Notes under the pieces: generated by a model
The model's input: only the letters and a program-made list of their open reading frames with translations
The model's database searches: none
What the model was told of the DNA's origin: nothing
Program-made: the position numbers and the translations under genes
Part shown: piece after piece, positions 30,157-61,993 of the stretch
How positions within the stretch are numbered: the stretch's first letter is position 1
Layout of the letters: every line of letters begins with the position of its first letter
Assembly (NCBI RefSeq): GCF_003606325.2
Contig: NZ_CP031843.2
Coordinates: forward strand, 2,115,001-2,179,000
DNA: 64,000 nt
Direction of reading: 5' to 3'
From: Bartonella kosoyi
Lineage (GTDB): Bacteria > Pseudomonadota > Alphaproteobacteria > Rhizobiales > Rhizobiaceae

Positions 30157-30367
30157 TGTGTTTTTGATCGTCCACGCAACGGTCAAATAGGGAGTTGAAA
30201 ACCCGAACGCTCAGTACATAAATTTATCCCGCTTTGCGGGTATCCCGGAATTCCGGGAGTTTTTGCTATGTCCAGGTGCATCTTCGCACTAAAAGCAAAA
30301 AGCTGACTGAGCTCAGTATTTTCAACCTCCCGGAATACTCATGCGAGGGCGCTCGCAACCGGAGGGG
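30157..30367 (+). ncRNA. Brt RNA 1 (riboswitch-like leader of trp1)
   Basis: Promoter TTGCCA (30122-30127), 17 bases, TATTGA (30145-30150); start near 30157. Elements in order: 5' hairpin (TTGATCG with CGGTCAA), closing helix P1 (GTTGAAAA 30194-30201 with TTTTCAAC 30319-30326), helix P2 (GCTCAG 30209-30214 with CTGAGC 30307-30312), hairpins CCCGC/GCGGG and TCCCGGA/TCCGGGA, an AGCAAAA-closed hairpin, and a 3' hairpin (TGCGAG/CTCGCA) whose outer stem CCTCC/GGAGG can hide the trp ribosome site. Matches the Brt family described in B. henselae (~200 nt, upstream of trp genes). Confidence 0.85.
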
Positions 30368-30375
30368 AGCTTGAA

Positions 30376-30768
30376 GTACAAACTAAAAATCCACATTTTC
30401 CAACCAAAAATCCCAATTTTATTGACATTTCAATAGGCAAAAGAATTCATCACAGACGCATTTCAATGGGGCTTTCCCAAAAGGAATTAGGAAGCCACTT
30501 AGGTGTCAGTTTCCAACAAATCCAAAAATATGAAAAAGGTTTAAATCGTGTAAGCGCAGGACGTTTACAAGAAATTGCCAACAGATTGGAAGTTCCCATT
30601 CACTTTTTTTACGCGGATATTGCTACAAAAGAAGATCTTTCCACAAAAGACAATCTCTCACACCATGATCAAGAAACCTATAGCGAAAAAGAACAGGCCC
30701 TTTTGAGAAACTTTAGAGAACTCCACCCTAAAAAACAGAAAGCAATCTGGTGGTTAATTTCTGATTAG
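30376..30768 (+). CDS. Trp1 HTH regulator with lost start codon
   Basis: The frame equivalent to the other trp genes begins at 30376, but the GTG start is GTA. The next in-frame ATG is 30466, giving a 100-residue product that lacks the first HTH helices (IGKRIRHRR). The full frame (130 codons) otherwise matches Trp2 closely: XRE-type HTH with SQKELGSHLGVSFQQIQKYE, then VPIHFFYADI and a C-terminal NFRELHPKKQKAIWWLISD. Family members are DNA-binding proteins that activate surface genes in B. henselae. With the start lost this copy is probably silent or makes a truncated protein without intact DNA binding. Confidence 0.7.
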   Translation, partial: VQTKNPHFPTKNPNFIDISIGKRIHHRRISMGLSQKELGSHLGVSFQQIQKYEKGLNRVSAGRLQEIANRLEVPIHFFYADIATKEDLSTKDNLSHHDQETYSEKEQALLRNFRELHPKKQKAIWWLISD

Positions 30769-30806
30769 ACAGAAGTCCACACAACGCATAAATTCTCCAC
30801 TTCATT

Positions 30807-31285
30807 TTACAGATTCACATTTTTACGCTTTACCATCTTTACTAAAAATCAACCAAACGAAAGGCTTAAACAGCCAGCACGCGCTGCACTATCAACATAA
30901 ATCTTTAAACCACATGACTTTTCTAGCAGAATTTTCTTCTAACCACTTCATATGGTTATCACCACGCCTCAAAGGCCGATATTTCATAAAAACTTAAGAG
31001 CAAGAGCTATTCTTGCCACTTTTTGCCTTTTCACACTCTCTGCCCCCTATTTTTCTCACCGCATTCCCTACCACGACGAAAGCCCACACAACGCATAAAT
31101 TCTCCACTTCATTTTACAGATTCACGTTTTTACGCTTTTGCATCTTTACAGAAGGCGCCAAACGAAACTCAAAAACCGCCATCCCTACGCCCCCTGTAAA
31201 CAACAGTCTATAAAAATCCAGCTTCGCTTAAAGCAGGTGCGGCTTGCTAATTATTTTATATGGTCATCCCCCCTCAAAGAAGAGT
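30807..31285. repeat. Long dispersed repeat A, copy 2
   Basis: Second copy of the unit at 29471, same orientation, lying after trp1. It runs up to the RepL-like fragment, whose apparent upstream extension (codons from 31138) is only this repeat read in frame. Confidence 0.88.
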
Positions 31286-31413
31286 GTTCCCCAGCCTGCA
31301 AATCCTGCCCTAAAATATCCACCCCCCACTTTCATAGGCAAGCCCTTACATTTACATTACTCAACGAACATCACACCCAAAAAAGCAGTGTTTTATGGCT
31401 TGCTAGGATAAAC

Positions 31414-31803
31414 TTGCGAAAGCAAAAATTTTCACCGCGTGAAAATCCTTTTCTCAAAAAATCTGAAATCTTTGCTAATGGAATCCAAAAAGTTTTTAAT
31501 TTATCTCGTACAGGTCATCGTGTTTTGATAATTGTTTTAGAGGAGTGTCAATCTAATAAGACAGAAAATAAAAATAATAATAGTATTACTCTAATTTGGT
31601 TTGATGGAGGCGTTAATGGAAAAAAACACGATATGGTCGACAGAACTTTTCACAATGGTTTAAGAGAGCTCATACAAAAAGGAATTTTAAAACCAAAATT
31701 ACCTAATCAATATTGGATCAATCCAATCCTATTCTTCAAAGGAAATAAAATTACTTTTATGAAAGAATATCAAATAGATCTCGAAGATTTTACAAAAATA
31801 TGA
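31414..31803 (+). CDS. RepL-like winged-helix protein, probably N-terminally truncated
   Basis: About 129 residues from TTG 31414 (AGGAT five bases upstream). The protein has SGHR-like TGHRVLIIVLEEC, then DMVDRTFHNGLRELIQKG, LKPKLPNQYWINPILFFKGN and MKEYQID. The WINP-LFFKGN pattern is that of RepL-type plasmid or phage replication proteins. The usual N-terminal part is missing: the frame runs back into repeat A. The segment just ahead (AGTGTTTTATGGCTTGCTAG) belongs to a short repeat found ~11 times in this region, so the current start may be supplied by that repeat. Function doubtful; may be a remnant of a phage-derived origin. Confidence 0.5.
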   Translation: MRKQKFSPRENPFLKKSEIFANGIQKVFNLSRTGHRVLIIVLEECQSNKTENKNNNSITLIWFDGGVNGKKHDMVDRTFHNGLRELIQKGILKPKLPNQYWINPILFFKGNKITFMKEYQIDLEDFTKI

Positions 31804-31869
31804 CTTGTATCATTTATCGTATTGTATATATTATGAGACATCTTAATTTAAGCGCGTGAGGGGAAAATA

Positions 31870-32127
31870 ATGTCAAAATTACAAATAGGCAAAAGCGCAT
31901 TGTTTTTTTTGCTTTTATGGCTTCGTGGTCCTGTAATAGTTATACTAAGCACTCTATCAGTTACATCTTTTATAACATTAGTTGGACTTCCTATTGCAAT
32001 ACATTTTACAGCAGTAAGTCGGTCAATATCATCATTAATATACCCCATGTTTTTGTTGTTTATTGTCAGTTTTGGCTCTTTCCTTCTCATTTTTTGTTAT
32101 GAAACATTGATACGCTTTTTAAGGTAA
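31870..32127 (+). CDS. Small two-pass membrane protein
   Basis: An 85-residue hydrophobic protein with a strong ribosome site (GAGGGG, seven bases before ATG 31870). Membrane segments at about 9-50 (with a possible hairpin around Pro-21) and 55-80, ending in CYETLIRFLR. No family recognised. It lies between a RepL-like fragment and a small lipoprotein gene, all on the plus strand, which suggests a mobile-element origin. Confidence 0.6.
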   Translation: MSKLQIGKSALFFLLLWLRGPVIVILSTLSVTSFITLVGLPIAIHFTAVSRSISSLIYPMFLLFIVSFGSFLLIFCYETLIRFLR

Positions 32128-32264
32128 ACTGTTTACACATTCCCCATTAACAATGCTCATAAAAAACAAAAGCGCGCGATAATTAATCTGTACACCAATA
32201 CAATAAACCATCTCATACCTTAGGATGATGATATTAACACATATAAATTTAAAGAGGGATAAAA

Positions 32265-32429
32265 ATGAAAAAAACCATTTTATTATGCATGGTTATGTTA
32301 GCTGTAGGATTTAGTATTACCGGTTGTGGTAAAACTGAAGAGGAAAAGCGTAGAGCCCAACAAGAAGAACAAGCTAAAAAGTTTTTTGAGACAAAATTAC
32401 CAGATACAGATCGTGGACATGCATATTAA
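32265..32429 (+). CDS. Small lipoprotein
   Basis: A 54-residue precursor. ATG 32265 follows AGAGGG by seven bases. The signal peptide is MKKTILLCMVMLAVGFSITG with the lipobox cysteine at residue 21 (ITGC), leaving a mature peptide of 34 residues that is charged and helical (TEEEKRRAQQEEQAKKFF). Signal peptidase II processing and membrane anchoring are expected. Resembles entry-exclusion or lysis-type small lipoproteins in size, but no specific family is claimed. Confidence 0.75.
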   Translation: MKKTILLCMVMLAVGFSITGCGKTEEEKRRAQQEEQAKKFFETKLPDTDRGHAY

Positions 32430-32457
32430 AAAAATCCCCTACAATATAAGATGTGAA

Positions 32458-32580
32458 TTTTGACTTCCCCCCTCACCTCAAAGGACGCAGGTTCCATCCA
32501 GCGCCATTCTTGTGCACGGTCCAGCTTCTTCTAGAGAAGAAGCTGCCTGTTGACTTCAGCTCACGCCCCTCAAAGAGCAG
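32458..32580. repeat. Repeat B copy 1 with perfect palindrome
   Basis: About 120 bp shared with 33120-33255. It contains CAGCTTCTTC-TAGA-GAAGAAGCTG, a perfect 10-bp inverted repeat, preceded by TTGTGCACGGTC. It is followed by the short CCTCAAAG...GTGTTT repeat. The palindrome lacks a T-run, so it is not a standard terminator. Confidence 0.85.
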
Positions 32581-32742
32581 TGTTTGACGGCATGATGGGA
32601 TAAATAAAACACTCCGCAAACGGAAGTTTCACAATCACTTGTTGAAATATCCTCTATAGAGGTATACCGTGTCAGGAAACCGCTATTAATGGAGAATTTA
32701 TGAGCACGATCCCCTCTTAATCCTGTTACCCCGAACCTACAG

Positions 32743-33090
32743 TTGATATACGTATCAAACATCGAGCATTCTACCGCTTTTTACAAATTCATCTTCAAAA
32801 AAGAGCCTATTTTCCTCTCGCCACGCTATGTTGCATTTACTTCTTCGGGTGATGCCCTCTTTGCTCTCTAGTCTGGAGGCGATACGCCTGAGGAAAATGT
32901 GCCTCGTTTTTCAGAAATCAGCATTATGTTGCCTCACGGAGAGGACGTAGATAAACTCTATGCAGAATGGCAAGAACAAACCACCGTTGAGATAAATGTC
33001 TTGAAAGAACCCTATACGGACGTATTTGGACGAACCTTCCTCATCAAAGATCCCGACGGTCATCTTATTCGTGTTTGCCCACTGGATTAA
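32743..33090 (+). pseudogene. VOC (glyoxalase/bleomycin resistance-like) remnant
   Basis: A single frame reads YVSNIEHSTAFYKFIFKK, then PIFLSPRYVAFTSSGDALFA, an in-frame TAG at about 32872, then SGGDTPEENVPRFSEISIML and FGRTFLIKDPDGHLIRVCPL. The IEHSTAFYK start and the FLIKDPDGHLIRV end are typical of VOC-fold proteins of ~115 residues. There is no good start codon, and the amber codon sits where family members carry a Trp or similar residue. A TTG at 32743 is the best remaining start. Read-through is unlikely; treat as a pseudogene. Confidence 0.75.
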
Positions 33091-33119
33091 AAAACTTTAA
33101 GACCTGATCTTTAATCGCC

Positions 33120-33255
33120 TGAATTTTGAGTTCCACCCCTCTCACCTCAAAGGACGAAGACTTCATCCAGCGCCGTTCTTGTGCACGGTCCAGCTTCTTC
33201 TAAAGAAGAAGCTGCTTGTTTACTTCGAGATCTTCACCCCTCAAAGCAGAGTGTT
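33120..33255. repeat. Repeat B copy 2 with palindrome
   Basis: Second copy of the unit at 32458; the palindrome reads CAGCTTCTTC-TAAA-GAAGAAGCTG. The two copies bracket the VOC remnant, which suggests the remnant was carried in or trapped between them. Confidence 0.85.
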
Positions 33256-33414
33256 TTATCAAGCTTGTCCATCCAGCCCTAAAATATTTTTTCTCTCGTC
33301 ATCCCTCTTCATCTACCCCCCCTGCTCCATAAACAGACTCCTTGCACCCCAATCCTCTCTCTATTCCACGCCATAACAAAAAGCCCAAATAAATAACGCA
33401 TCAATTCTCCGCTT

Positions 33415-33800
33415 TCTTTTACAGATCCACGTTTTTACGCTTTTACGTCTTTACAGAGAACAGCTCAACGAAAGGCTTAAACAGCCAGCACGCGCTGCAC
33501 TATCAACATAAATCTTTAAACCACATGACTTTTCTAGCAGAATTCTCTTCTAACCACTTCATATGGTTATCATCACCCCTCAGAAGACAATATTTCATGG
33601 AAACTTAAGAGCAAGAGCTATTCTTGCCACTTTTTGCCTTTTTACACTCTCTGCCCGCTATTTTCTCGCGACATTTCCTAGCACAACAAAAGCCCCCACA
33701 ACGCATAAATTCTCCGCATCATTTTACGGCTTCACGTTTTTACGCTTTTGCGTCTTTACAGAAGACATCCTAGGGAAATTTCTAAACCACCCCACCATTC
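33415..33800. repeat. Long dispersed repeat A, copy 3 (partial)
   Basis: Shares the CAGCCAGCACGCGCTGCACT to ATATGGTTATCA part and the double TTTACAG motif with copies 1 and 2, then diverges. The spacer to the next Brt promoter (33801-34133) has no gene. Confidence 0.85.
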
Positions 33801-34168
33801 GATAAACAAGAATCTGTAAATAATCCAATTTTTATCGCGTACATTGCAGTCGAGCAACCACCTCTCATCGCCCCTCAAAGGATGAGATTACACCAGACAC
33901 AACAGATAAGCCCGGCTCTTAAATATTCACCACACACTTTTAAAAAAGCACCTTATAAATTTACATGCTTGAAGATCCCACAACGGCATATTCTTGGCCT
34001 CTAATGCCTCCTCCTCACCCCGCCTCAAACACCCCTTTTTACGGCATAATCCTATTTTACGACATAAGAAGGATAATTAGATAATTTTTAAGATACAAAA
34101 AATGCTCTCATTTTTCACATCTTTTAATTTTTCTTGCCAATCTTTTGAAATTACTTTATCACTCAAAA

Positions 34169-34379
34169 GGTGCTTTGGTCGTCTACGCAGCGATCAATAG
34201 GGAGTTGAAGCCTGAAAAGCCTAATACATGAATTTGTCCCGCTTTGCGGGTATCCCGGAGTTCCGGGAGCTTTTGCTATGTCCAAGTGCATCTTCGCACT
34301 AAAAGCAAAAGGCTGATTAGGCTCAGTACTTTCAACCTCCCGGAATACTCATGCGAGGGCGCTCGCAACCGGAGGGGAG
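34169..34379 (+). ncRNA. Brt RNA 2
   Basis: Promoter TTGCCA (34134-34139), 17 bases, TATCAC (34157-34162). P1 is GTTGAA (34204-34209) with TTCAAC (34331-34336); P2 is AGCCTAA (34218-34224) with TTAGGCT (34317-34323), different in sequence from Brt1 yet fully paired. The CCCGC/GCGGG and TCCCGGA hairpins and the ribosome-site hairpin are conserved. Leads directly into trp2. Confidence 0.87.
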
Positions 34380-34385
34380 CTTGAA

Positions 34386-34778
34386 GTGCAAACTAAAAAT
34401 TCACATTTTCCAACCAAAAATCCCAATTTTATTGATATTTCAATAGGGAAAAGAATTCGTCACAGACGCATTTCAATGGGGCTTTCCCAAAAAGAATTAG
34501 GAAGCCACTTAGGTGTCAGTTTTCAACAAATCCAAAAATATGAAAAAGGTTTAAATCGTGTCAGCGCAGGACGTTTACAAGAAATTGCCAACAGATTGGA
34601 AGTTCCCATTCACTTTTTTTACGGAGATATTGCTACAAAAGAAGATCTTTCCACAAAAGACAATCTCTCACACCATGATCAAGAAACCTATAGCGAAAAA
34701 GAACATGCCCTTTTAAGAAATTTTAGAGAACTCCACCCTAAAAAACAGAAAGCAATCTGGTGGTTAATTTCTGATTAG
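34386..34778 (+). CDS. Trp2 XRE-family HTH regulator
   Basis: A 130-residue protein from GTG 34386, with GGAGGGG nine bases upstream in the Brt 3' hairpin. XRE/Cro-type HTH at about 19-75 (IGKRIRHRRISMGLSQKELG, VSFQQIQKYEKGLNRVSAGR), a short VPIHFFYGDI link and a C-terminal helix region NFRELHPKKQKAIWWLISD. Only intact member of the 'SQKELGSHL' subtype here; the five downstream copies are of a second subtype. Expected to be a dimeric DNA-binding regulator; in B. henselae such proteins influence badA expression. Confidence 0.9.
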   Translation: MQTKNSHFPTKNPNFIDISIGKRIRHRRISMGLSQKELGSHLGVSFQQIQKYEKGLNRVSAGRLQEIANRLEVPIHFFYGDIATKEDLSTKDNLSHHDQETYSEKEHALLRNFRELHPKKQKAIWWLISD

Positions 34779-36281
34779 ATAAAAACGCCCTCATCAGCAT
34801 ATTCCGCAACATATCCAACACAACATACCTCAATAAAACTTATGTACATCTCAAGAGACAATATTTCAAGGAATCTTAAGAACAAGCCCGATCCTCTTCT
34901 TCACTCTTCGTCCCCACTTCTCTCCCTACAGGCTATGCCACAACAAAAGCCCCCACAAAGCCCAACTCCTTCACATCATTTTACAGATTCACGCCTTTAC
35001 GCTTTGCTCCCCCCCTGCACCTAACGCTTTTGATATCGGATATCACCCGCCTCCAATAATGTACAGTAGCCTCCCAATGGGGAAGGACATCCCCCCACTT
35101 CAAACGACATCCCCTTGTTCATCCCCCCTTGACAGCATCAGAGAGCAACAAGCAATAAAGCAACAAAATCTTGGAAAAAAACCTTGAGCACCCTCACCCC
35201 ATATTCCTTCTCACCCATCGTCTTCCCAATGGTTTTTATGGGGGCTCTTATCTTCTCTGGTTTAAAGATACAATTCCGATTGTGTCATTATGATACCTTT
35301 TTACATTAACCTTGTCAAGTTTTTATATTGTTCTTTTAATATTTCGTGTCATTCTTTCTCATAATCATCTCTCTTATGCAACCAGAATGCCCAAAACATA
35401 AAGCACAAAATAAACCATCATTATGTTGCTTATTCACGCATTTTTGAAAAAACATGCCTACTGCTTTTGCCATTTCACGACAGTGCACTGCAAAATAACG
35501 CTCCATACCTTGTGATCATATAAACCAACCTTTCCCCCTTCACCTCTCCTCCCTCTCTTATAGTGACCACGCCCCCTTCATCCCATTCTCTCCCCCTTCA
35601 CTCTCTGCTTTCTCTTCTCTCCCATCAACGCACCCATACGCCCCTCTTCATCTCAACGTGTCCCCTCCATTGACAAAATCTCCACCTCCAAATCCTCTCC
35701 ACCCCTCAACGCATCACACAAAACGCCAATACGCCTCCAAAGGCTATACAACGCCTAAATCCCCCCACGCTCTTGAACGTTCACTTCATTTTCACAGAAC
35801 CACATTTTTACGCTTTTACAGAATTAAGCCAAATGCAACGTCCACAACAGTTTTACAAGAGCGCATACATAACCACTTATTTCCCAACAAGCTTATCTTC
35901 CCACGACCTTGCCTCCATTCTCCACGCATTCCCTCACGCTTCTCACCGTCTCTTTTAAAGAATTTTCTGCCCTTCCTCAAAGAATGAAAATTTCGATTAA
36001 CATCGATTGACAATCCCTCTTCAAAAAGCATCTTCCCCAAAAAACAAAACGTCCACACCACTCAAGCAACAATACGCTACACTCCAACTTCGCCAAGCCA
36101 AGCCCCCTTCATATCACATCCCCTCAAACGATGTTTTTTCTTGATAAAAAACATCAAAGATCAAAACAGATATCTTAATTTTCCTCTTACACGACAGATT
36201 GAAAAGTGCCTAGAAAATTTAATTGATCAGCTTCAACCATTAGACTAATATTTAAAAGAAGATTACAGAAAGGAATTTCCT
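34779..36281. other. Repeat-derived spacer
   Basis: About 1.5 kb, C-rich on the plus strand, with no gene. It contains one TTTACAG/CGCCTTTACGC motif near 34981 and one copy (about 35690-35850) of the unit that is tandemly repeated at 37300-37924. Open frames here are low-complexity Pro/His/Ser strings produced by C-rich DNA. Confidence 0.5.
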
Positions 36282-36587
36282 ATGCAAAAGAAATTACCCA
36301 AAAGTTATATGACAGATGCTGAACGTGAGGAATTACGAGCAGGCGGTTTAGATTAAGACTGTATCTATCTCTCTGAATCAGAAGCAGCAGATCGTGCTGG
36401 TGATGACAAAGCAGCATGGGAATGGTTAGCAATAGCTGATTTACCAGCTCACACACTCTTGTTTCTTAGATCTCAAAATGGAGCACAATTTATACGTGAT
36501 ATGGGGTTTTCTACCAAGAATGCGGATGAAGAATATTGTGCAGATTGGCTAGACAAAGGTGTTATGATAGGAGGTCATTATTTCTAA
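36282..36587 (+). pseudogene. Hypothetical protein with in-frame stop
   Basis: ATG 36282 with AAGGAA ten bases upstream begins a 101-codon frame (MQKKLPKSYMTDAEREELRA) interrupted by TAA at 36354-36356 and then continuing intact: YLSESEAADRAGDDKAAWEW, LPAHTLLFLRSQNGAQFIRD, ADEEYCADWLDKGVMIGGHY. The intact flanks on both sides of a single stop indicate recent loss. Family not recognised. The end overlaps the beginning of the next broken gene, so they formed an operon. Confidence 0.65.
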
Positions 36588-37113
36588 AGAATTAGAACGG
36601 ATTTTGTCTCGCGAAGAAGGCTATGTGAAAAAAATCAATGATACATTAGCCGCGAAGAGATGAAGAGATTATGTGATATACGAAATGATTTGTGTAGTCA
36701 TATTCGTAACGTTAGAAAGAGTGGGGATTTATCATCGCTTCTTGATACAGAGCGTAGCATAATAAAAAGTGACTTGCTCAGATATGCCAATAGCCAGGCT
36801 ATGACCAGCAGCCTTAAAACAGCATTAACTGAAATAAATGTTGTTAAGAAGCACGGAGCACTTGTTAATGATCCTACGCGTTACAAAGTGATCAATGAGG
36901 CTTATAGTTTACCCAAAAATCGTAAAGGTGATTTGCCTTATGATGAAGCTATGCCAAGCCATGGCATCCCATTATGCACGGTTAGAAAATTTAGACAAAG
37001 AGCGTTTAACATCCGTTGAAAAATCAATTATTGACATGCGAAGAGAAAATATCAAGGCAATGCAAAAACTTTACGAAAAGATGCAAGCTAAAGCTATCGG
37101 CGTAGACCTATAA
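36577..37113 (+). pseudogene. Helical hypothetical protein broken by frameshifts
   Basis: Three consecutive frames together make one ~175-residue helical protein. Part 1 (36577-36661) reads SKELERILSREEGYVKKIND, part 2 (from 36660) MKRLCDIRNDLCSHIRNVRK through YSLPKNRKGDLPYDEA, part 3 (to 37113) MASHYARLENLDKERLTSVE and MRRENIKAMQKLYEKMQAKA. Shifts fall near 36655 and 36955. The presumed start after GGAGG reads ATT. No family identified. Its loss together with the upstream gene suggests an abandoned operon from a mobile element. Confidence 0.6.
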
Positions 37114-37299
37114 AAATCGATTAGTATACAAATTAAAAAGGCTTTTCATAACGCTCGTATCCAATTACCTGCCATCTCCCAAAGACCGAAAGTTTTTAAG
37201 CATCAATTGACAATCCCACTTCCAAAAGTAGATTCCCCAAAAACGACAAAGCACACACACACCACTCAGTAAACAACCGCTCAATCAACAATCTCCCCC

Positions 37300-37924: not shown

Positions 37925-37949
37925 TCTATCCCGTGGAATTTCCCCCGAC

Positions 37950-40529: not shown

Positions 40530-40572
40530 TTTTTTCCTTTCTTGAGGCAACCCTTTAAGCCTGACTTCTTAG

Positions 40573-40767
40573 TCATCGCCACGGCCCTTTTTCTCTCTCA
40601 AAACACCTACCAAAAGCTCTCCCCAGCATGTCATAAAGACCGCCCCACCACACGAACACCAGAAACGTTGAAGCATGAAGAACTGTCGTGTTAAAATGAA
40701 TATGGGTTGTGATCCAAACGAGTGCAAGAGCAAAACATGAAAGAAAAAACAAGAACAAGAAACGCAT
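40573..40767 (-). CDS. Small two-pass membrane protein upstream of clpB
   Basis: 64 residues from ATG 40767, which has GAGG eight bases upstream. Two hydrophobic segments (about 2-22 and 30-50) and a basic tail (FGRCFEREKGPWR). The frame is open further upstream but without a ribosome site. Located 43 bp ahead of clpB on the same strand. Unknown family; could be a chance hydrophobic ORF. Confidence 0.35.
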   Translation of the reverse strand: MRFLFLFFLSCFALALVWITTHIHFNTTVLHASTFLVFVWWGGLYDMLGRAFGRCFEREKGPWR

Positions 40768-41489: not shown

Positions 41490-42725
41490 TCAATGATCGT
41501 CCTCTCCTGTCGTATCAGAGGGTGTTAACGTTTTACTTTTTTTAATTTTTATAACACCAGTCATTCCAGTAAGAATGATAAAGGCAGACATCGTTAAAAA
41601 AGAGCTCATTAATCCGACGAGAGCAAAAAGCCCAGCAATAAGGCCAGACGCAGCTTCAGCAGAGTTTGCTAGAGTTGAAAAGGTTCCAAAACTCTTACCA
41701 AAATCTTCACGACGAGAATATAATTGAAGCGCTGAGACTAAACTAATATCCACAAATGCACCCGTAAATCCTAAAACAAAAGCGAACACGAGAAGGAGTT
41801 TGAAAGAAAGGACTACCACTAAAGGCATAACAAATAAAACGCTCCCATAAAGAAGCCAAAAGACCATAAGCTTTAATGATGTAACCTTGGATATAATTTT
41901 ATGATAGAATACACCACCGATAATCGTTCCCACAGCCATGAGAGAAAAAAGTGAACTCACAAAGCTTTCTTCTCCCCCCACAGACAGAACAAAAGCTGGA
42001 ATTAAAAATCTTAAAATTGCCCCCGTAAAGAGAATAGCAACCGACGATCCAATAAGCGTAATCAATAAGTTATTATTTTCAGTATAAATAGCTTTAAGAT
42101 AAGAAGTGGTTTCGCGATAAATTTTTATAAAATTGAATGATTGAGTCTCACTTGCATTTAAACTCATGAGATTCAATAACAGGATAATAGAGATAAAGTA
42201 GGTAAAAAAATCAAAAATGAGGACGGTGGATTTATTGGCTAAAAACAGCAGGAGGGAACAAACTAAAGGACCAATGACGGCGGCAATTTCATTGATAATT
42301 TGTGCAAGACTATTTGCTTTAGTCAGATCCTTTCTTGCAAACATTTTCAGGATAGCAGCTTGAAAGCTTGGTTGAAAAATACTTCTTCCAATTGTTGTAC
42401 CTATTGCTGCCAAAATAAGCACAATAATATGAGCCGTCCCTGTTATCGTGGTTATCCAAACGAATAATGAGGCAAATAATCTCACCACTTCACTGCAGAT
42501 CATATTTTTCTTCAAAGAAAAATTATCTGCGAACCAACCGCCTATAGGTCCAAAAAAGAGAAAAGGGATAAATCGAAAAAAATACACAAGACCGATCAAA
42601 AAGGCATTATCTGTGACTTCTAAGACAAGTAAAACGAAAACGACTTCATAAGCATAATCACCAACTTTAGAAATAAACAGAGAAGAAAAAAGAGCGAAGG
42701 GACTCTTTTTAAAAAATAACTTCAT
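41490..42725 (-). CDS. MFS transporter (MFS_3-like)
   Basis: A 411-residue membrane protein from ATG 42725 (GGGTG leader). Twelve membrane segments are evident; FFGPIGGWFADNFSLKKN between TM2 and TM3 is the MFS signature loop, and ANSLAQIINEIAAVIGPLVC fits TM5. It resembles the enterobactin-exporter/MFS_3 group of drug and siderophore exporters. Substrate unknown. Its AT-rich, Ile/Phe-rich composition and place between repeats and trp modules suggest horizontal acquisition. The next MFS gene (43824-45035) is on the same strand but a Brt-trp module on the other strand lies between. Confidence 0.88.
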   Translation of the reverse strand: MKLFFKKSPFALFSSLFISKVGDYAYEVVFVLLVLEVTDNAFLIGLVYFFRFIPFLFFGPIGGWFADNFSLKKNMICSEVVRLFASLFVWITTITGTAHIIVLILAAIGTTIGRSIFQPSFQAAILKMFARKDLTKANSLAQIINEIAAVIGPLVCSLLLFLANKSTVLIFDFFTYFISIILLLNLMSLNASETQSFNFIKIYRETTSYLKAIYTENNNLLITLIGSSVAILFTGAILRFLIPAFVLSVGGEESFVSSLFSLMAVGTIIGGVFYHKIISKVTSLKLMVFWLLYGSVLFVMPLVVVLSFKLLLVFAFVLGFTGAFVDISLVSALQLYSRREDFGKSFGTFSTLANSAEAASGLIAGLFALVGLMSSFLTMSAFIILTGMTGVIKIKKSKTLTPSDTTGEDDH

Positions 42726-42980
42726 ATCACCCACCCGATATTAAACTTTTTTACAGTTAAAGTCCCCCGCCCTTTCATACAATTGATGATATGAACTTCA
42801 AAGGAACGCCCAATTCGTTGTCAAAATATCTCCGCTAAGTATTCCATACCCTAATATCGATCTCAAAGAACATTTTTTCACAAAAAAAGAGGATAATTCT
42901 TGAGTTCCAAAAAATATTTTCACCTTCCCAATATCTTCATTTTTCTTGCCAATCTTCTGAAATTCCTTTATTACTTAAAA

Positions 42981-43190
42981 GATATTTTGATCGTCTACGC
43001 ACCGATCAAGAGGGAACTAAAAGCCCTAAACCCTAGCGTATAGTTGAACCCACTCTTGTGGGTGTCCCGGGATTCCGGGAGATTTTGCTATGTCCAGGTG
43101 CTTGACCGCACTAAAAGCAAAAAGCTGACTAGGGTTCAGTACTTTTAGACTCCCGGAATACCCATGCGAGGGCGCTCGCAACCGGAGGGG
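42981..43190 (+). ncRNA. Brt RNA 3
   Basis: Promoter TTGCCA (42946-42951), 17 bases, TATTAC (42969-42974). 5' hairpin TTGATCG/CGATCAA perfect. P1 CTAAAAG (43017-43023) with CTTTTAG (43142-43148); P2 AACCCTAG (43029-43036) with CTAGGGTT (43129-43136); apical hairpin CCCAC/GTGGG replaces CCCGC/GCGGG of Brt1-2. Ribosome site GGAGGGG at 43184-43190 in the 3' hairpin. Confidence 0.88.
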
Positions 43191-43197
43191 AAACAAA

Positions 43198-43587
43198 GTG
43201 CAAACCAAAAATTCACAGTTTCAAACCAAAAACCCACATTTTATTGATATTGCGATTGGCAAAAGAATTCGTCAAAGACGCATGGCCATGGGGCTTACTC
43301 AAAAGGCATTAGGGAATTCTTTAGGGGTGAGTTTCCAACAAATTCAAAAATATGAAAAAGGTTTAAACCGTGTAAGCGCAAGCTGTTTACTAGAAATCGC
43401 TACACAACTACAAGTTCCAATAAGCTTTTTTTATGCGGATCTTTTAACAAAGGATATTGTCTCAAAAGACCATCACGCACACCCTGATCAATACATCTAT
43501 AGCGCACAAGAATTTTCCCTTTTAAAAAACTTTAGAGAGCTTACCCGCAAAAAACAGCAAGCGATTTGGTGTCTAATCTCTGACTAG
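43198..43587 (+). CDS. Trp3 XRE-family HTH regulator
   Basis: 129 residues from GTG 43198. XRE-type HTH (IGKRIRQRRMAMGLTQKALG, VSFQQIQKYEKGLNRVSASC), linker VPISFFYADLLTKDIVSKDH and C-terminus NFRELTRKKQQAIWCLISD. It represents the second trp subtype, shared with Trp4-7; Trp3 and Trp5 differ by essentially one residue (G versus E in MAM-G/E-LTQ). Expression is expected to depend on the Brt3 leader. Confidence 0.9.
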   Translation: MQTKNSQFQTKNPHFIDIAIGKRIRQRRMAMGLTQKALGNSLGVSFQQIQKYEKGLNRVSASCLLEIATQLQVPISFFYADLLTKDIVSKDHHAHPDQYIYSAQEFSLLKNFRELTRKKQQAIWCLISD

Positions 43588-43823
43588 ACCAAAGTGCACA
43601 GAAACATTCTTCGCGCATCTCCCCCTAAAATATAAGATTCAGATCAAGCCCCCTCAAAGGACAAAGGACCGTATTTCAAAAAACTTACCAAACAAGCCGT
43701 CCCTTAAATATTCAACATGACATGCGCACAAAAACACCTAAATTGTAAATCTATTCTCCAATACCAACCTCACAGAACGGTGTTTTAGGGCATGATAAGA
43801 TACTTGTTTCATTGATGAGTAAA

Positions 43824-45035
43824 TCATTTAGAAGAAACAATTGATAAAGAACTGTTTACCAATATTCTGATCCCCAATAAACAGAATAATCCCATCATTC
43901 CAGAAAGAAGGAATAACTTCCCCGAAGAAGTGTGATCTAAAACAAAGGCTCCAATAAACGGCGCCACCAACATCGCTAAATTTTGTATAGACTGCACCCA
44001 TCCAGAAGCGACCCCAATTTGTTCATTAAAATTGGTTACCAGATAAACGTTAGAAGATATGGAAAAGTAAGCACTGACCATTCCAATGAGGAAAAAACAG
44101 AGCAACAAAGTTTCAATATGGAGTAAGTCTAAGTAAAAAAAGCACACGGAGATCATGACAAAACACACCATTGTTAACATCGCTGGCATTAACAACTCCG
44201 ATATTTTGCCTGTAAGGGGTCTATGTTTTGATTTTTTCACACTCCAAAACCCATATAGAAAATTACCAATCGCCGAAGCAGATACCAGCATCCCAAGTGC
44301 CTGTTTATTCATCTTCATTGCCTTAAGAATGACCGGCAACTGATTATTCACCATAAAAACCATGGCAAAATAAATGAACATCACCCCCACATAGGCATAC
44401 CAATTTATCCCATAAAGGCTCTGTTGTGATGTCTTACTATTTGCTTTTTTTATCATTGACATTGAGACAGGCTGCGAACCAATACTACAAAACACCATAA
44501 AACCTAGCAATGTCAAAAATCCAGAAAACAATAAAGTATAGGTGTCTGACCAAAGTGCAGAGAGCGTACTGCCCAAAGCAGGTCCGATCATTTTTGCCGC
44601 GCTATTGATCATGTTCAAAACAGAATAGTAACGGCTCCGTTCGCATTCAGGGACAGAATTTGCACTAAGAACGGAAATTGCAGGCATAGCGACACTATTG
44701 AATATCGCTCGAATGACTGCCAATACAATAAATCCTTGCAGAGTAGTCGCCATCAATAAAGCGACAGTACACAGCGCGCGCAACAGCAGTGACGCCCGCA
44801 ACCAATGTATCATATACTTGCTACTAACAAGCATTCCAATTGGCTTAGACAGAATAATTCCAGGGAATAATGTTGCAGCCCCAATAAAAGCGACATCATA
44901 TTGATCTGCTTTCCAATAGAACACGGATACGGTCAAAATTACAATGTAATCAATCCATCCCCCAAATGACACGATGCCATCTCCCAGCAAAATCACCCGC
45001 AAGCGATTTTTTGTTGCCGCATTTACTTGCACCAA
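43824..45035 (-). CDS. MFS transporter
   Basis: A 403-residue, 12-segment membrane protein. MFS hallmarks: GWIDYIVILTVSVFYW (TM1), GIILSKPIGMLVSSKYMIHW (TM2-3 loop with a diverged signature), RSRYYSVLNMINSAAKMIGP (TM5 region) and a central charged loop near residue 195. Probably an exporter of a small molecule; substrate unknown. It is preceded by a small ORF that overlaps its start by 13 bases, so translation is likely coupled. Confidence 0.87.
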   Translation of the reverse strand: MVQVNAATKNRLRVILLGDGIVSFGGWIDYIVILTVSVFYWKADQYDVAFIGAATLFPGIILSKPIGMLVSSKYMIHWLRASLLLRALCTVALLMATTLQGFIVLAVIRAIFNSVAMPAISVLSANSVPECERSRYYSVLNMINSAAKMIGPALGSTLSALWSDTYTLLFSGFLTLLGFMVFCSIGSQPVSMSMIKKANSKTSQQSLYGINWYAYVGVMFIYFAMVFMVNNQLPVILKAMKMNKQALGMLVSASAIGNFLYGFWSVKKSKHRPLTGKISELLMPAMLTMVCFVMISVCFFYLDLLHIETLLLCFFLIGMVSAYFSISSNVYLVTNFNEQIGVASGWVQSIQNLAMLVAPFIGAFVLDHTSSGKLFLLSGMMGLFCLLGIRILVNSSLSIVSSK

Positions 45036-45211
45036 AATACGACTCCTGCTTTTTCATCAGCAAAGCTGATAGGATTTTTGCTTCTTTCTTGCGCCCTAAA
45101 GGCATCAATGACTGTCCTGCAACCCGGCAATTTATAATCGTCAATAATAACAAAACCAGCAGTGACCATTGCAGTGCAAAGCAGCAATGCGGTTATCATG
45201 ATGTTGCTCAT
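45023..45211 (-). CDS. Small exported protein coupled to MFS transporter
   Basis: 62 residues from ATG 45211 (GGTGGGAAA leader); the frame is open to 45259 without a better site. A hydrophobic N-terminus (NIMITALLLCTAMVTAGFVI) acts as signal or anchor; the remainder is DDYKLPGCRTVIDAFRAQER and ADEKAGVVFWCK, with two cysteines 35 residues apart. The last 13 bases overlap the MFS start. Family not recognised. The pairing with a transporter could mean a peptide substrate or accessory subunit, but this is inference from position only. Confidence 0.5.
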   Translation of the reverse strand: MSNIMITALLLCTAMVTAGFVIIDDYKLPGCRTVIDAFRAQERSKNPISFADEKAGVVFWCK

Positions 45212-45570
45212 AGATTTCCCACCCCATTTGTCTTTCAGTTTGAGGAGGTTTAAGCACAATTTAAAAATTCTGCCATACTACCAATTTTTCACAACCAATG
45301 ATGCCAAGATATCATGGTGCCATAAATACAATGGACCTTAGATTACCATACCAGAGTGGATAGATTCCGCTGTAACTATTTGAATGGTTTAAGACATTTC
45401 CGATGAAAATTCCCCGCTCTTTTAGTGTCTACTGTAGTCAGTAGGCATCTATTATATCTTCCCTACCTCTTTAGCAAGAGATAGTTGTGGAATGATACAC
45501 TCCCTTGCAGTTTTATAGTAATTTTTTCATTTTTCTTGCCAACCTTCTAAGATTCCTTTATTAATGAGCA

Positions 45571-45781
45571 CGTGTTTTTGATCGTCCACGCAACGGTCAA
45601 ATAGGGATCTAAAAGCCCGAAAGCTTAATACATAAATTTATCCCGCTTTGCGGGTATCCCGGGATTCCGGGAGATTTTGCTATGTCCAGGTGCTCGACCG
45701 CACTAAAAGCAAAATGCTGACTAGGGTTCAGTACTTGTTACTCCCGGAATACCAATGCGAGGGCGCTCGCAACCGGAGGGG
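45571..45781 (+). ncRNA. Brt RNA 4, chimeric with unpaired stems
   Basis: Promoter TTGCCA (45536-45541), 17 bases, TATTAA (45559-45564). The conserved hairpins and the 3' ribosome-site hairpin are present. The P1 strands are CTAAAAG (45609-45615) and CTTGTTA (45734-45740), which do not pair, and the P2 strands (AGCTTAA and CTAGGGTT) do not pair either. The 3' half matches Brt3 in P2 and Brt6 in P1. This copy seems to be a recombinant of different Brt halves. Confidence 0.8.
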
Positions 45782-45788
45782 AAGCAAA

Positions 45789-46178
45789 GTGCAAGCTAAA
45801 AATTCACAGTTTCAAACCAAAAACCCACATTTTATTGATGTTTCAATCGGCAAAAGAATTCGTCAAAGACGCATGGCCATGGGGCTTACTCAAAAGGCAT
45901 TAGGGAATTCTTTAGGGGTGAGTTTCCAACAAATTCAAAAATATGAAAAAGGTTTAAACCGTGTAAGCGCAAGCTGTTTACTAGAAATCGCTACACAACT
46001 ACAAGTTCCAATAAGCTTTTTTTATGCGGATCTTTTAACAAAGGATATTGTCTCAAAAGACCATCACGCACACCCTGATCAATACATCTATAGCGCACAA
46101 GAATTTTCCCTTTTAAAAAACTTTAGAGAGCTTACCCGCAAAAAACAGCAAGCGATTTGGTGTCTAATCTCTGATTAG
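45789..46178 (+). CDS. Trp4 XRE-family HTH regulator
   Basis: 129 residues from GTG 45789, nearly identical to Trp3 (start VQAKNSQF instead of VQTKNSQF; FIDVSIGKRI instead of FIDIAIGKRI). HTH and C-terminal motifs as in Trp3. A longer frame runs back through the Brt, but the GTG with the GGAGGGG site is the start shared by all copies. Because Brt4 cannot form its stems, this gene may be expressed differently from its sisters. Confidence 0.88.
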   Translation: MQAKNSQFQTKNPHFIDVSIGKRIRQRRMAMGLTQKALGNSLGVSFQQIQKYEKGLNRVSASCLLEIATQLQVPISFFYADLLTKDIVSKDHHAHPDQYIYSAQEFSLLKNFRELTRKKQQAIWCLISD

Positions 46179-46367
46179 ACCAAAGTGCACAGAAACATTC
46201 TTCGCGCATCTCCCTCCCCCAGCTTAAAATTCCCATCCCCCACAAAGAGCAGTGTTTTAGGGCATGATAGGATAAATTTATCATAGAAGAGAAAAATGCG
46301 CTAAGCTTAAAAAGTAAGCCCCATTATTCCTATAACAATGACACCATCACGATCTTAACTGAAAAGG

Positions 46368-46766
46368 TTAAGAAAGGAGTCTTGCTGAGAGCCCATTTTG
46401 CGTTAGCAGGTCTATTGCTAATTTATCAAATGAAACAAAGGTTTCACCGCCTAGCCAATGTCCCTCATAAGATATAATTCCATCAGCAAAATCTCCACCA
46501 GCCTCAAGCATAGCAAGCCCTGCTTCAACAGCTGGTCGATTCATGACAACATTACGCGTTGCAAGAAGATTACGAACCATCAAAGCAATCTCTTCTTTTG
46601 ATAATTTTGCCCCGCGGCGGAGTATCCAAATAAGTTCACAAAGACAAGGCAAAGAAATAGCGATGAGAGAAGCTTCTCTTAAGATCTTACTTGCTATTTC
46701 ACCTTGCTTTTTATCATCTTGTAAAACAGCGCGGGCTAAAACATTTGTATCTACAGAAATCCTCAC
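46368..46766 (-). CDS. vapC: VapC-type PIN-domain toxin
   Basis: 132 residues from GTG 46766, which overlaps the antitoxin stop in GTGA; a start 15 bases upstream is possible. PIN-domain acidic residues are visible: D in ISVDTNVLARA, E in LCELIWILRR, D in GGDFADGIIS and D in VSFDKLAID. VapC toxins are Mg-dependent endoribonucleases, often cutting tRNA or rRNA. All catalytic positions are present, so it should be active. Forms an operon with the AbrB-type antitoxin upstream. Confidence 0.88.
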   Translation of the reverse strand: MRISVDTNVLARAVLQDDKKQGEIASKILREASLIAISLPCLCELIWILRRGAKLSKEEIALMVRNLLATRNVVMNRPAVEAGLAMLEAGGDFADGIISYEGHWLGGETFVSFDKLAIDLLTQNGLSARLLS

Positions 46767-47014
46767 TTTTTCCCCGCCCAACCAGAGGCAGCAATTTCGT
46801 TCATTTCTTCGACAGTCAGTGTTTTTTTAACTTTTCCGGCAAATCGTCCAATAAAGCTATCAATTGTGCTTGTAGGCTGTGCTGCTTTTATACGAAGTTC
46901 ACCACCTGGTAACTTATCAAAGTTGATGCGCTCTCCTGGTTTAACACCAAGGTGCTGGAGTAAATCCCGCTTCAGCGTCACTTGTCCTTTTGCTGTAACA
47001 GTTAGTGAAGGCAT
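46763..47014 (-). CDS. vapB: AbrB/SpoVT-type antitoxin
   Basis: 83 residues. The N-terminal swapped-hairpin AbrB fold is visible: LTVTAKGQVTLKRDLLQHLG, VKPGERINFDKLPGGELRI. The C-terminal tail (DSFIGRFAGKVKKTLTVEEM, NEIAASGWAGKK) would wrap the VapC toxin. ATG 47014 follows AGAGGA. Overlaps vapC by 4 bases. It binds its own promoter in related systems; the region 47015-47075 is AT-rich but no clean operator was defined. Confidence 0.88.
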   Translation of the reverse strand: MPSLTVTAKGQVTLKRDLLQHLGVKPGERINFDKLPGGELRIKAAQPTSTIDSFIGRFAGKVKKTLTVEEMNEIAASGWAGKK

Positions 47015-47536
47015 AGAAAAATCCTCTTAATATAAATATCGTTATTCAGTATATATATAAAAAATAATGAAAAATTCAATTACTTTTTAAAATTACCAAA
47101 GCACTATAGGGCAGATCCTGAACATGAGGAATTGTAAGATATATTCGTTTTCATACCGGCAATATCTGATTACACCCGAAAAATAGGAGACCTTGAACTC
47201 CTTCCTGCATTAAACAACGGTGCTTTATGGCATAGGAGAATGTGTAGAATTGAAGATGATCATGTTTCATCTATCCACTAACACAAATGCGATCAATAGG
47301 AAAAGCTTTTAAAGCAGAAAAACACGCACCATTGAAAAAAAATGATGAGGCCGTAGGTTTTACGCATCCTCCACCTTTTTCTTAAAACAGCAAAGGAACG
47401 CCCAATTCGTTGTCAAAATATCCTCGCTAAGTATTCCATACCCTAATATCGATCTCAAAGAACATTTTTTCACAAAAAAAGAGATAATTCTTGAGTTCCA
47501 AAAAATATTTTCACCTTTCCAGTATCTTCATTTTTC
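47015..47536. other. Spacer: promoter side of vapBC and upstream arm of a duplicated block
   Basis: No gene. 47395-47536 is nearly identical to 42802-42945, the sequence ahead of Brt3, so the duplicated block containing a Brt-trp module starts here. One copy of the CGGTGCTTTATGGCAT short repeat occurs near 47217. Confidence 0.6.
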
Positions 47537-47571
47537 TTGCCAATCTTCTGAAATTGCCTTATTACTTAAAA

Positions 47572-47782
47572 GATATTTTGATCGTCTACGCACCGATCAA
47601 GAGGGAACTAAAAGCCCTAAATCCGAGCGTACCATTGAACCCACTGTTGTGGATATCCCGGAATTCCGGGAGTTTTTGCTATGTCCAGGTGCTTGTCTGC
47701 ACTAAAAGCAAAAAAACTGACTCGGATTCAGTACTTTTAGACTCCCGGAATACCCATGCGAGGGCGCTCGCAACCGGAGGGG
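47572..47782 (+). ncRNA. Brt RNA 5
   Basis: Promoter TTGCCA (47537-47542), 17 bases, TATTAC (47560-47565). P1 CTAAAAG (47608-47614) with CTTTTAG (47734-47740) as in Brt3; P2 AATCCGAG (47620-47627) with CTCGGATT (47721-47728), a fully compensated change against Brt3. Apical hairpin is CCAC/GTGG. Ribosome-site hairpin conserved. Confidence 0.88.
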
Positions 47783-47789
47783 AAATAAA

Positions 47790-48179
47790 GTGCAAACCAA
47801 AAATTCACAATTTCAAACCAAAAACCCACATTTTATTGATATTGCGATTGGCAAAAGAATTCGTCAAAGACGCATGGCCATGGAGCTTACTCAAAAGGCA
47901 TTAGGGAATTCTTTAGGGGTGAGTTTCCAACAAATTCAAAAATATGAAAAAGGTTTAAACCGTGTAAGCGCAAGCTGTTTACTAGAAATCGCTACACAAC
48001 TACAAGTTCCAATAAGCTTTTTTTATGCGGATCTTTTAACAAAGGATATTGTCTCAAAAGACCATCACGCACACCCTGATCAATACATCTATAGCGCACA
48101 AGAATTTTCCCTTTTAAAAAACTTTAGAGAGCTTACCCGCAAAAAACAGCAAGCGATTTGGTGTCTAATCTCTGACTAG
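47790..48179 (+). CDS. Trp5 XRE-family HTH regulator
   Basis: 129 residues from GTG 47790. Same architecture as Trp3; the HTH reads MAMELTQKALG (Glu instead of Gly). The gene and ~150 bp of flank on each side duplicate the Trp3 locus almost base for base. Identical protein with different leader stems suggests that regulation rather than DNA specificity has diversified. Confidence 0.9.
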   Translation: MQTKNSQFQTKNPHFIDIAIGKRIRQRRMAMELTQKALGNSLGVSFQQIQKYEKGLNRVSASCLLEIATQLQVPISFFYADLLTKDIVSKDHHAHPDQYIYSAQEFSLLKNFRELTRKKQQAIWCLISD

Positions 48180-48497
48180 ACCAAAGTGCACAGAAACATT
48201 CTTCGCGCATCTCCCCCTAAAATATAAGATTCAGATCAAGCCCCCTCAAAGGACAAAGGACCGTATTTCAAAAAGCTTACCAAACAAGCCGTCCCTTAAA
48301 TATTCAACATGACACGCGCACAAAAACACCTAAATTGTAAATTTATATACCCAATATCGAATCTTAAAGAGTGTTTTTTACAGCATAATACAACATAAGA
48401 GGATAATGAGATAATTCTTGAGCTCCAAAAATATTTTCACCTTTCCAGTATCTTCATTTTTCTTGCCAATCTTCTGAAATTCCTTTATTACTTAAAA

Positions 48498-48707
48498 GAT
48501 ATTTTGATCGTCTACGCACCGATCAAGAGGGAAAACAAGCCCTAAATCCGAGCGTATAGTTGAACCCACTGTTGTGGATATCCCGGAATTCCGGGAGTTT
48601 TTGCTATGTCCAGGTGCTTGTCTGCACTAAAAGCAAAAAAACTGACTCGGATTCAGTACTTGTTACTCCCGGAATACCAATGCGAGGGCGCTCGCAACCG
48701 GAGGGGA
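48498..48707 (+). ncRNA. Brt RNA 6
   Basis: Promoter TTGCCA (48463-48468), 17 bases, TATTAC (48486-48491). P1 AACAAG (48534-48539) with CTTGTT (48659-48664), new sequence and fully paired; P2 AATCCGAG (48545-48552) with CTCGGATT (48646-48653) as in Brt5. The AUG in the central hairpin (48606) is here in frame with trp6 without a stop between, unlike in the other copies. Confidence 0.88.
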
Positions 48708-48713
48708 AGCAAA

Positions 48714-49103
48714 GTGCAAACTAAAAATTCACAATTTCAAACCAAAAACCCACATTTTATTGATGTTTCAATTGGCAAAAGAATTCGTCAAAGACGCATG
48801 GCCATGGAGCTTACTCAAAAGGCATTAGGGAATTCTTTAGGGGTGAGTTTCCAACAAATCCAGAAATATGAAAAAGGTTTAAACCGTGTAAGCGCAAGCT
48901 GTTTACTAGAAATCGCTACACAACTACAAGTTCCAATAAGCTTTTTTTATGCAGATATTGTGACAGCAGATATTGTCTCAAAAGAAAATCTCTCACACCC
49001 TGATCAATACATCTATAGCGCACAAGAATTTTCCCTTTTAAAAAACTTTAGAGAGCTTACCCGCAAAAAACAGCAAGCGATTTGGTGTCTAATCTCTGAC
49101 TAG
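48714..49103 (+). CDS. Trp6 XRE-family HTH regulator
   Basis: 129 residues from GTG 48714. HTH as in Trp5 (MAMELTQKALG); linker differs (YADIVTADIVSKENLSHPD), a mixture of both trp subtypes, which suggests gene conversion. If translation began at ATG 48606 inside the Brt, a 36-residue extension (starting MSRCLSALKAKK) would be fused to the protein. The GTG start is preferred for its ribosome site. Confidence 0.9.
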   Translation: MQTKNSQFQTKNPHFIDVSIGKRIRQRRMAMELTQKALGNSLGVSFQQIQKYEKGLNRVSASCLLEIATQLQVPISFFYADIVTADIVSKENLSHPDQYIYSAQEFSLLKNFRELTRKKQQAIWCLISD

Positions 49104-49389
49104 ACCAAAACGCACAGCAACATTCTTCGCGCATAGAGCCCTTTTGTTAAAATTGATGCCCCCTCACCATACTTTAAAAGACGCGACAAACAACCCCACC
49201 CCTAAAACATTCAACACTCTCTCTTACAAAAAAATACCCCAATGCGTAAAATCTATAAACCCAATATCAGCCTCAAAAAGTAGTGTTTCACAAAATAAGA
49301 GGATAATTCTTGCGATACAAAAAAAATTTCATTTTCCAAATAATTTCATTTTTCTTGCCAATCTCCTGAAATTCCTTTATTGATGAACA

Positions 49390-49590
49390 CGTGTTTTGAT
49401 CGTCCACGCAACGGTCAATAAGGAGTTGGATTCCTTAAAACTTAACGCATAAACAATTATGGCTATCCCGGAAATTCCGGGGGCTTTTGTTATGTCCAAG
49501 TGCGATAAGCACTAAAAACAAGAGACTGTTTAAGTTCAGTGAATCCAACCTCCCGGAATACCCATGCGAGGGCGCTCGCAACCGGAGGGG
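49390..49590 (+). ncRNA. Brt RNA 7
   Basis: Promoter TTGCCA (49355-49360), 17 bases, TATTGA (49378-49383). The most divergent copy. P1 GTTGGATT (49425-49432) with AATCCAAC (49542-49549); P2 AACTTAA (49439-49445) with TTAAGTT (49530-49536); inner hairpin AGTGC/GCACT. The apical CCCGC hairpin is degenerate. The ribosome-site hairpin is unchanged. Confidence 0.87.
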
Positions 49591-58081: not shown

Positions 58082-58097
58082 AATGACACCGTCTTCC

Positions 58098-58340: not shown

Positions 58341-58351
58341 CCTCTTCTAGC

Positions 58352-61991: not shown

Positions 61992-61993
61992 CT

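Follow-up and report, generated by a model that had tools for sequence, protein, structure and literature searches.

The Brt RNAs of Bartonella are probably 5' leaders of the trp regulator genes that follow them, built on a scaffold resembling the phage C4 antisense RNA and equipped with two alternative folds that are predicted to act as a switch. This reading comes from a 64,000-nt stretch of the Bartonella kosoyi genome (contig NZ_CP031843.2, positions 2,115,001 to 2,179,000 of the forward strand; hereafter the window), which holds seven Brt-trp pairs. The pairing of two long-range helices (P1 and P2), the alternative fold, the kinship with leaders of traM genes on rhizobial plasmids and the match in layout to loci of the sRNA-Xcc1 type are supported by computation.

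In B. henselae, Brt1-9 and Trp1-9 have been described as multicopy leaders, each directly upstream of a helix-turn-helix (HTH) regulator gene (Tu et al. 2016, PMC5387305). The window copies belong to the same family, each being a putative RNA of ~200 nt directly upstream of an HTH regulator gene. B. henselae Houston-1 carries 9 copies in 1.93 Mb, whereas the genome of the window (2.28 Mb in two contigs, the second of 41 kb) yields 24 matches to one Brt copy. The main text of the B. henselae study uses RNAfold on single copies and does not contain the string 'covari'; the RNAs are termed genus-specific there on BLAST evidence (PMC5387305). A full-text search of the open-access literature (subscription papers lie outside its scope) found no paper that brings together Brt, Bartonella and C4 antisense RNA, and none that brings together three of traM, C4, sRNA-Xcc1, leader RNA and Agrobacterium.

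Copy-specific stems in the window

Each Brt leader has a hairpin on its 5' side, followed by the upstream strands of P1 and P2, an apical hairpin (absent from copy 7) and hairpin A. Stem P3, which encloses TATGTCCA...ACTAAA, comes next, and after it the 3' strands of P2 and P1 and CTCCCGGAAT. The leader ends in a hairpin and a G-rich Shine-Dalgarno (SD) region upstream of the trp start. The features of the seven copies are given below, where a1 and b1 denote the 5' strands of P1 and P2, a' and b' their 3' strands, the core runs from the 5' to the 3' strand of a further stem, P4, and E values are those of a model (R2) built from rhizobial leaders, both described below.

30194..30214, +: copy 1, a1 (30194-30201) and b1 (30209-30214)
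30250..30336, +: copy 1, C4-like core, b' 30307-30312, a' 30319-30326; R2 match 30253-30333, E 6e-9
30376..30768, +: copy 1, trp frame
34204..34224, +: copy 2, a1 (34204-34210) and b1 (34218-34224)
34260..34346, +: copy 2, C4-like core, b' 34317-34323, a' 34329-34336; E 1e-8
34386..34778, +: copy 2, trp, 130 aa, GTG start
43017..43036, +: copy 3, a1 (43017-43023) and b1 (43029-43036)
43072..43159, +: copy 3, C4-like core, b' 43129-43136, a' 43142-43148; E 5e-6
43198..43587, +: copy 3, trp, 129 aa, Pfam HTH_3
45609..45628, +: copy 4 (chimera), 5' strands CTAAAAG (45609-45615) and AGCTTAA (45622-45628), mismatched to its own 3' strands
45664..45750, +: copy 4, core region; E 1e-6; minimum-energy fold with P4 and without the usual inner hairpins
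45789..46178, +: copy 4, trp, 129 aa, intact
47608..47627, +: copy 5, a1 (47608-47614) and b1 (47620-47627)
47663..47751, +: copy 5, C4-like core, b' 47721-47728, a' 47734-47740; E 7e-7
47790..48179, +: copy 5, trp, 129 aa
48534..48552, +: copy 6, a1 (48534-48539) and b1 (48545-48552)
48588..48675, +: copy 6, C4-like core, b' 48646-48653, a' 48659-48664; E 2e-8
48714..49103, +: copy 6, trp, GTG at the usual start, within a longer open reading frame (ORF) listed from 48606
49425..49445, +: copy 7, a1 (49425-49432) and b1 (49439-49445)
49474..49559, +: copy 7, C4-like core, b' 49530-49536, a' 49542-49549; E 9e-6
49598..49987, +: copy 7, trp, GTG at the usual start, within a longer ORF listed from 49487

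At the expected start of the copy 1 trp frame (30376-30378) stands GTA, where the other copies have GTG; its first in-frame ATG is at 30466.

A reading made from the window sequence alone had proposed that P1 and P2 change between copies and still pair. All the strands that this sequence-only reading quoted are found in the window, and pairing holds in six of the seven copies (1, 2, 3, 5, 6 and 7); in copy 4, omitted from its list, both helices are broken. The 3' strands of that copy, CTTGTTA and CTAGGGTT, do not pair with its own CTAAAAG and AGCTTAA, the best helices in place having 3 and 4 pairs, and copy 4 is a chimera with both P1 and P2 broken. The two strands of P1 are spaced 117-119 nt apart (109 in copy 7) and those of P2 92-93 nt (84 in copy 7). 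The single-sequence minimum-energy folds of five copies (1, 3, 5, 6 and 7) include both helices; copy 2 adopts other registers, forming 0 of 6 quoted P1 pairs and 0 of 7 quoted P2 pairs, and copy 4 forms P4 instead (9 of 10 pairs, probability 0.98). Compensation had also been claimed for the apical change from CCCGC/GCGGG to CCCAC/GTGGG. This is true in part only, as copies 5 and 6 end in GTGGA, with one C.A mismatch, and copy 7 has no such hairpin.

Pairing across Bartonella copies

Further copies were obtained with an exact-pattern scan of public genomes and of the genome of the window. The 134 pattern matches reduced to 118 unique sequences, of which 113 were of full length and 111 usable (L069_875 and L006_1276 were lost). 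P1 and P2 are both intact in 85 of these 111 copies, compared with a mean of 6.7 and a maximum of 15 in 300 shuffles of the 3' strands. The RNAduplex energy of the 3' strands averages -16.7 kcal/mol with the 5' half of the same copy and -9.8 kcal/mol with those of other copies, a value for own pairing that none of 2000 permutations reached. Excess mutual information is 0.59 and 0.71 of its maximum between the distant paired strands (~90-120 nt apart) and 0.31 and 0.46 between neighbouring strands, and the 85 intact copies hold 33 P1 types and 28 P2 types in 53 combinations. The trp gene is intact in 61 of 77 copies with intact stems versus 5 of 22 with broken ones (p=2e-6; 12 copies were not assessable); decay of whole copies may account for part of this association, the stems being kept where the gene is kept.

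Covariation by column was scored in an alignment, A2, of 68 of the 95 non-redundant cores. It was built for model-making and most broken copies were excluded, so its covariation figures are biased towards pairing, whereas the 111-copy test uses all copies. With the P1/P2 structure, 91.5% of the A2 cells are paired versus 86.6% after shuffling, and double-change cells number 173 versus 66.5; P1 with its extension reaches 93.9% and P2 74.2%. Structural column pairs occupy 6 of the top 20 places when ranked by mutual information (9 of 20 in the rhizobial alignment A5, below), and many of the non-structural top pairs in A2 are linked polymorphisms in columns 28-45. Covariation at P1 and P2 is seen in the genus-wide set and in the rhizobial relatives, so the proposal of covarying helices survives. 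The copy-specific paired stems of the Brt RNAs are real.

A second, mutually exclusive fold

Applied to A2, RNAalifold returns a fold with P4 and not with P1 and P2. P4 is a nearly invariant 10-bp helix of ATTCCGGGAG with CTCCCGGAAT, and the same fold includes a GCTGA/TCAGT hairpin whose loop holds P2', the 3' strand of P2. P4 is incompatible with hairpin A and with the P1 extension; on these models there is a second conserved fold that is mutually exclusive with the P1/P2 fold. Both P4 strands are changed together in one copy with a broken trp (L057_6099). Three other genomes each carry just one copy, which is divergent (L107-L109); there P4 is GACCGGGGG/CCCCCGGTC and GCTA/TAGC forms the P2' hairpin.

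When excised, the cores of six of the seven window copies fold as a three-way junction, with P2' in a hairpin loop, the place of b' in C4, and P1' in a linker, the place of a'; P1 therefore corresponds to a1:a' and P2 to b1:b'. The gap between a1 and b1 is 5-7 nt in the window copies and 7 nt in phage P1. Folding under constraints, carried out on 65 of the 85 intact copies, gave a lower ensemble energy with P1 and P2 enforced than with P4 in 49 of the 65, the mean difference being 3.2 kcal/mol.

Related leaders on rhizobial plasmids

A model built from the Bartonella copies (R1) matched 628 places, spread over 49 of 71 Bartonella genomes. Among 394 genomes of the family it matched 14, comprising 3 of Bartonella, 6 others with genuine-looking loci (L153, L154, L155, L159, L160 and L161; E 1e-8 to 0.055) and 5 with short matches. 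These last five of the eleven non-Bartonella matches (L156, L157, L158, L162 and L163; 56-94 nt) were set aside as chance. BLAST with L155 returned 335 plasmid records and with L153 196, headed by Agrobacterium and Rhizobium. Among 18 plasmid regions that were read, 6 have TraM annotated directly downstream and 2 an unnamed gene beside a traR or luxR gene; in the remaining 10, a different regulator or a hypothetical protein follows, or the place is unannotated or without a gene. Pfam identifies the proteins encoded after L155 and L160 as TraM, and on a Ti record, which we take to be octopine-type, traM itself carries a Brt-like leader. A group II intron (RF00029) terminates inside the leader of L160 (1454-1526), adjoining the expected position of P1.

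The core pattern fits 22 of the 24 rhizobial loci read (L224 and L228 failed), and 21 of them form alignment A5, from which L160 was left out. The P1/P2 structure pairs in 93.8% of its cells versus 83.1% when shuffled, with 97 versus 33 double-change cells, and the alternative fold in 92.8% versus 85.9%, with 38 versus 13. A hairpin that bears a1 and stands behind the 5' hairpin is 98.8% paired in the 21 leaders, with double changes in three of its four pairs; in Brt this hairpin was judged by eye. The internal-loop motif TATGTCCA/ACTAAA is common to Bartonella and the rhizobia.

The model R2 was made from the rhizobial plasmid leaders and includes no Bartonella sequence, its seeds having first been located via R1. 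Within the window its only matches are the seven Brt copies, all of which it finds (E 6e-9 to 9e-6), and its 19 matches in the whole genome are every one among the 24 Brt matches. To judge from these model matches, the Brt RNA type extends beyond Bartonella and also precedes the gene for the quorum-sensing regulator TraM on plasmids of plant-associated bacteria. In the rhizobial loci scanned, the leaders have no match in Rfam 15 at E<=10 except to sRNA-Xcc1, which is far below threshold (23 of 53 bits) but in register; in a scan of eight loci there was no sRNA-Xcc1 match.

Loci of the sRNA-Xcc1 type

At E<=0.001, sRNA-Xcc1 (RF02221) has matches in 51 of 299 genomes of the phylum, 35 above the cut-off. 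The genome of the window holds 14 sRNA-Xcc1-like loci (L207-L220; for example L210:542-632), away from the Brt loci and all below the cut-off at 40-52.5 bits; the window itself has no match at the Rfam gathering score. In loci of this type the variable strands, or barcodes, occur three times: upstream of the core, within it, and next to the SD where the mRNA starts. A duplex test on 28 of 44 loci showed preferential pairing of the core strand with the upstream copy and with the mRNA start of the same locus (none of 2000 permutations was as good for either), the own partner being the single best in only 9 of the 28 for each site. The protein downstream of L210 is an AntA/KilAC phage antirepressor, and that of L214 has weak repeat matches only. 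Shared descent of Brt with sRNA-Xcc1 is likely from these comparisons, if thinly supported.

Proposed mechanism and alternatives

The 5' half of the leader holds the two short strands a1 and b1, and the 3' half is predicted to form the three-way-junction core, displaying b' in its hairpin loop and a' in its linker. Pairing of a1 with a' and of b1 with b' is incompatible with P4, which closes the core, and the leader can therefore switch between two folds, the choice of which would set trp output. The 3' strand of P4 (P4', CTCCCGG) would pair either with its partners on the 5' side or with the G-rich SD region, and the copy-specific letters would mainly keep each leader paired with itself. On the modelled structures, the two folds most likely form a switch in the trp leader. 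Deletion of the 3' region raises trp1, according to a review (PMC8070961), and antisense knockdown of Brt1 is reported to raise badA (PMC5387305); these data fit a repressive 3' region without fixing which fold represses. Inspection by eye found no U-run of the kind that ends a terminator.

Self-pairing of each leader best explains the barcodes. Own pairing beats that with every sibling in the same genome in 78 of the 85 intact copies, exact duplicates having been dropped beforehand. Avoidance of shared barcodes within a genome was considered and rejected: none of 492 ordered pairs shares one, but exact duplicates had previously been dropped. With duplicates kept, a barcode is shared in 2 of 199 within-genome pairs (both in a block of 100% identity) versus 63 of 2961 between genomes, a comparison confounded by orthology. 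In one genome, Brt copies 381 bases apart (L043 and L046) stand in identical blocks on two contigs, through duplication or an assembly artefact. A scan of the window with the seven barcodes returned the copies themselves and a few other sites. Two of the barcode patterns, searched genome-wide, gave 5 matches each, and the reversed-pattern controls 1 and 11; 6 of these matches lie outside Brt, and no start codon that opens an ORF of at least 60 aa follows any of them, save for one TTG inside a longer ORF.

The sequence-only notion of a single defined fold with barcoded stems is right in that the stems pair and are copy-specific, and incomplete in that a second, exclusive fold is conserved and 26 of the 111 copies have one or both stems broken. 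This last count speaks against our own reading as well, as do several other results. The stems of window copy 4 are broken although its trp is intact, and P4 pairs in only 84.7% of cells in the rhizobial alignment because two columns fail in about half of the rows. The trp starts carry no a2/b2 copy, the second set of target strands found in phages (912 of 2000 permutations were as good), and there is none downstream of the rhizobial leaders and L109 (698 of 2000). The Rfam C4 model (RF01695) matches nothing in the whole window at its gathering score, nor copy 3 under relaxed settings (E<=10); R2 does not match the C4 of phage P1, and it reaches just 2 of 44 sRNA-Xcc1-type loci at E<1e-5. Finally, release of the SD by P4 had to be rejected. 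Only 7 of 65 copies have a more open SD when P4 is formed, with a mean unpaired value under constraints of 0.32 with P4, 0.49 with P1 and P2 and 0.41 when free, and the predicted direction, in which P4 frees the SD, was therefore dropped.

The failure to find a target, in cis by the permutation tests or in trans with two barcodes, is what a ligand-sensing riboswitch or attenuator would give, in which the stems drift neutrally with compensation, the barcodes are meaningless and the likeness to C4 is convergent. The conservation of the internal-loop motif in Bartonella and rhizobia also suits such an element, as does the response of a brt1 reporter to heme level, heme having been suggested as the ligand in a review (PMC8070961). 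We nevertheless hold it to be the less likely account, for the full order of parts (a1 in a putative hairpin, b1, three-way junction, b' loop, a' linker) recurs in the C4 of phage P1 and in sRNA-Xcc1-type loci. A trans-acting antisense RNA of the C4 type, with P1 and P2 as the inactive precursor fold and with a' and b' of each copy aimed at different mRNAs (for example badA or genes of mobile elements), seems to us doubtful to a like degree. C4 itself works that way (PMC5320573), knockdown of Brt1 raised badA, and Brt RNA is reported as abundant and trp as poorly transcribed (PMC5387305); against this, the six genome-wide sites that two barcodes gave outside Brt lie before no start codon except the one inside a longer ORF, badA not having been examined. 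That recombination between repeats produced the matching strands as a side effect, free of selection on pairing, is very improbable: the copies do recombine, as the 53 combinations and chimeras like copy 4 attest, but distant paired strands are linked more tightly than neighbours, broken stems accompany broken trp, and the rhizobial leaders covary too.

Beyond the leader switch that we favour, we offer only tentatively the wider view that Brt and traM leaders are widespread self-addressed RNA switches, in which a phage-type C4 scaffold has lost its cis target and the many paralogous regulators of a genome are controlled separately because the two-part barcode of each leader pairs with itself (or with one trans partner).

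Other features of the window

The sole Rfam match in the window at the gathering score is 6S RNA (62501-62661). Arrays of a 15-base unit resembling CCAGCACCGCCCCCT lie at 58095-58347 and 61797-62007.

Comparison with known systems

Formerly regarded as confined to Bartonella and riboswitch-like, the Brt RNAs are now placed beside C4, sRNA-Xcc1 and the plasmid traM leaders. This placement explains the differences in stems between copies, unites RNAs that are listed apart in Rfam, and provides a testable, strand-by-strand pairing scheme for an RNA that is highly expressed and has links to BadA and biofilm. By model score the traM leaders are the closest system; they share P1, P2, the core motif and P4 with Brt, and in both the cis target is absent. 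They differ from Brt in the downstream gene, which is traM, another regulator or unannotated, and in the G-rich 3' element. The sRNA-Xcc1 loci share the layout of the core and have copies resembling a1 and b1 upstream, outside the 87-nt Rfam model, but unlike Brt they repeat the barcode at the mRNA start.

In phage P1 the annotated order is a1, b1, C4, a2, b2, icd, ant. RNase P is described as making the 5' end of C4, while b' masks part of the ribosome-binding site and specificity comes from a' (PMC5320573). The C4 and c4-a1b1 RNAs of phages P1 and P7 (RF01695, RF03163) share with Brt the 5' hairpin, b1 ~7 nt beyond a1, and the core of a three-way junction with b' in the loop and a' in the linker. 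Rfam c4-a1b1 places a1 in a hairpin behind the 5' hairpin, and a hairpin of this kind is putative in Brt. As in C4, a1 and b1 stand upstream and are complementary to a' and b', in 85 of the 111 Brt copies (0 of 2000 permutations), and the likeness in layout is strong. In phage P1, isrK (RF01394) matches the c4-a1b1 region (L232:731-812) with 35 of 50 bits; isrK may be part of the same kind of leader. Unlike phage C4, Brt has no a2/b2 at the downstream start and no Rfam C4 match, and an HTH regulator takes the place of icd-ant. Since the Brt and traM leaders have no cis target and Brt has no Rfam C4 match, we call them a C4-like variant rather than members of the C4 family.

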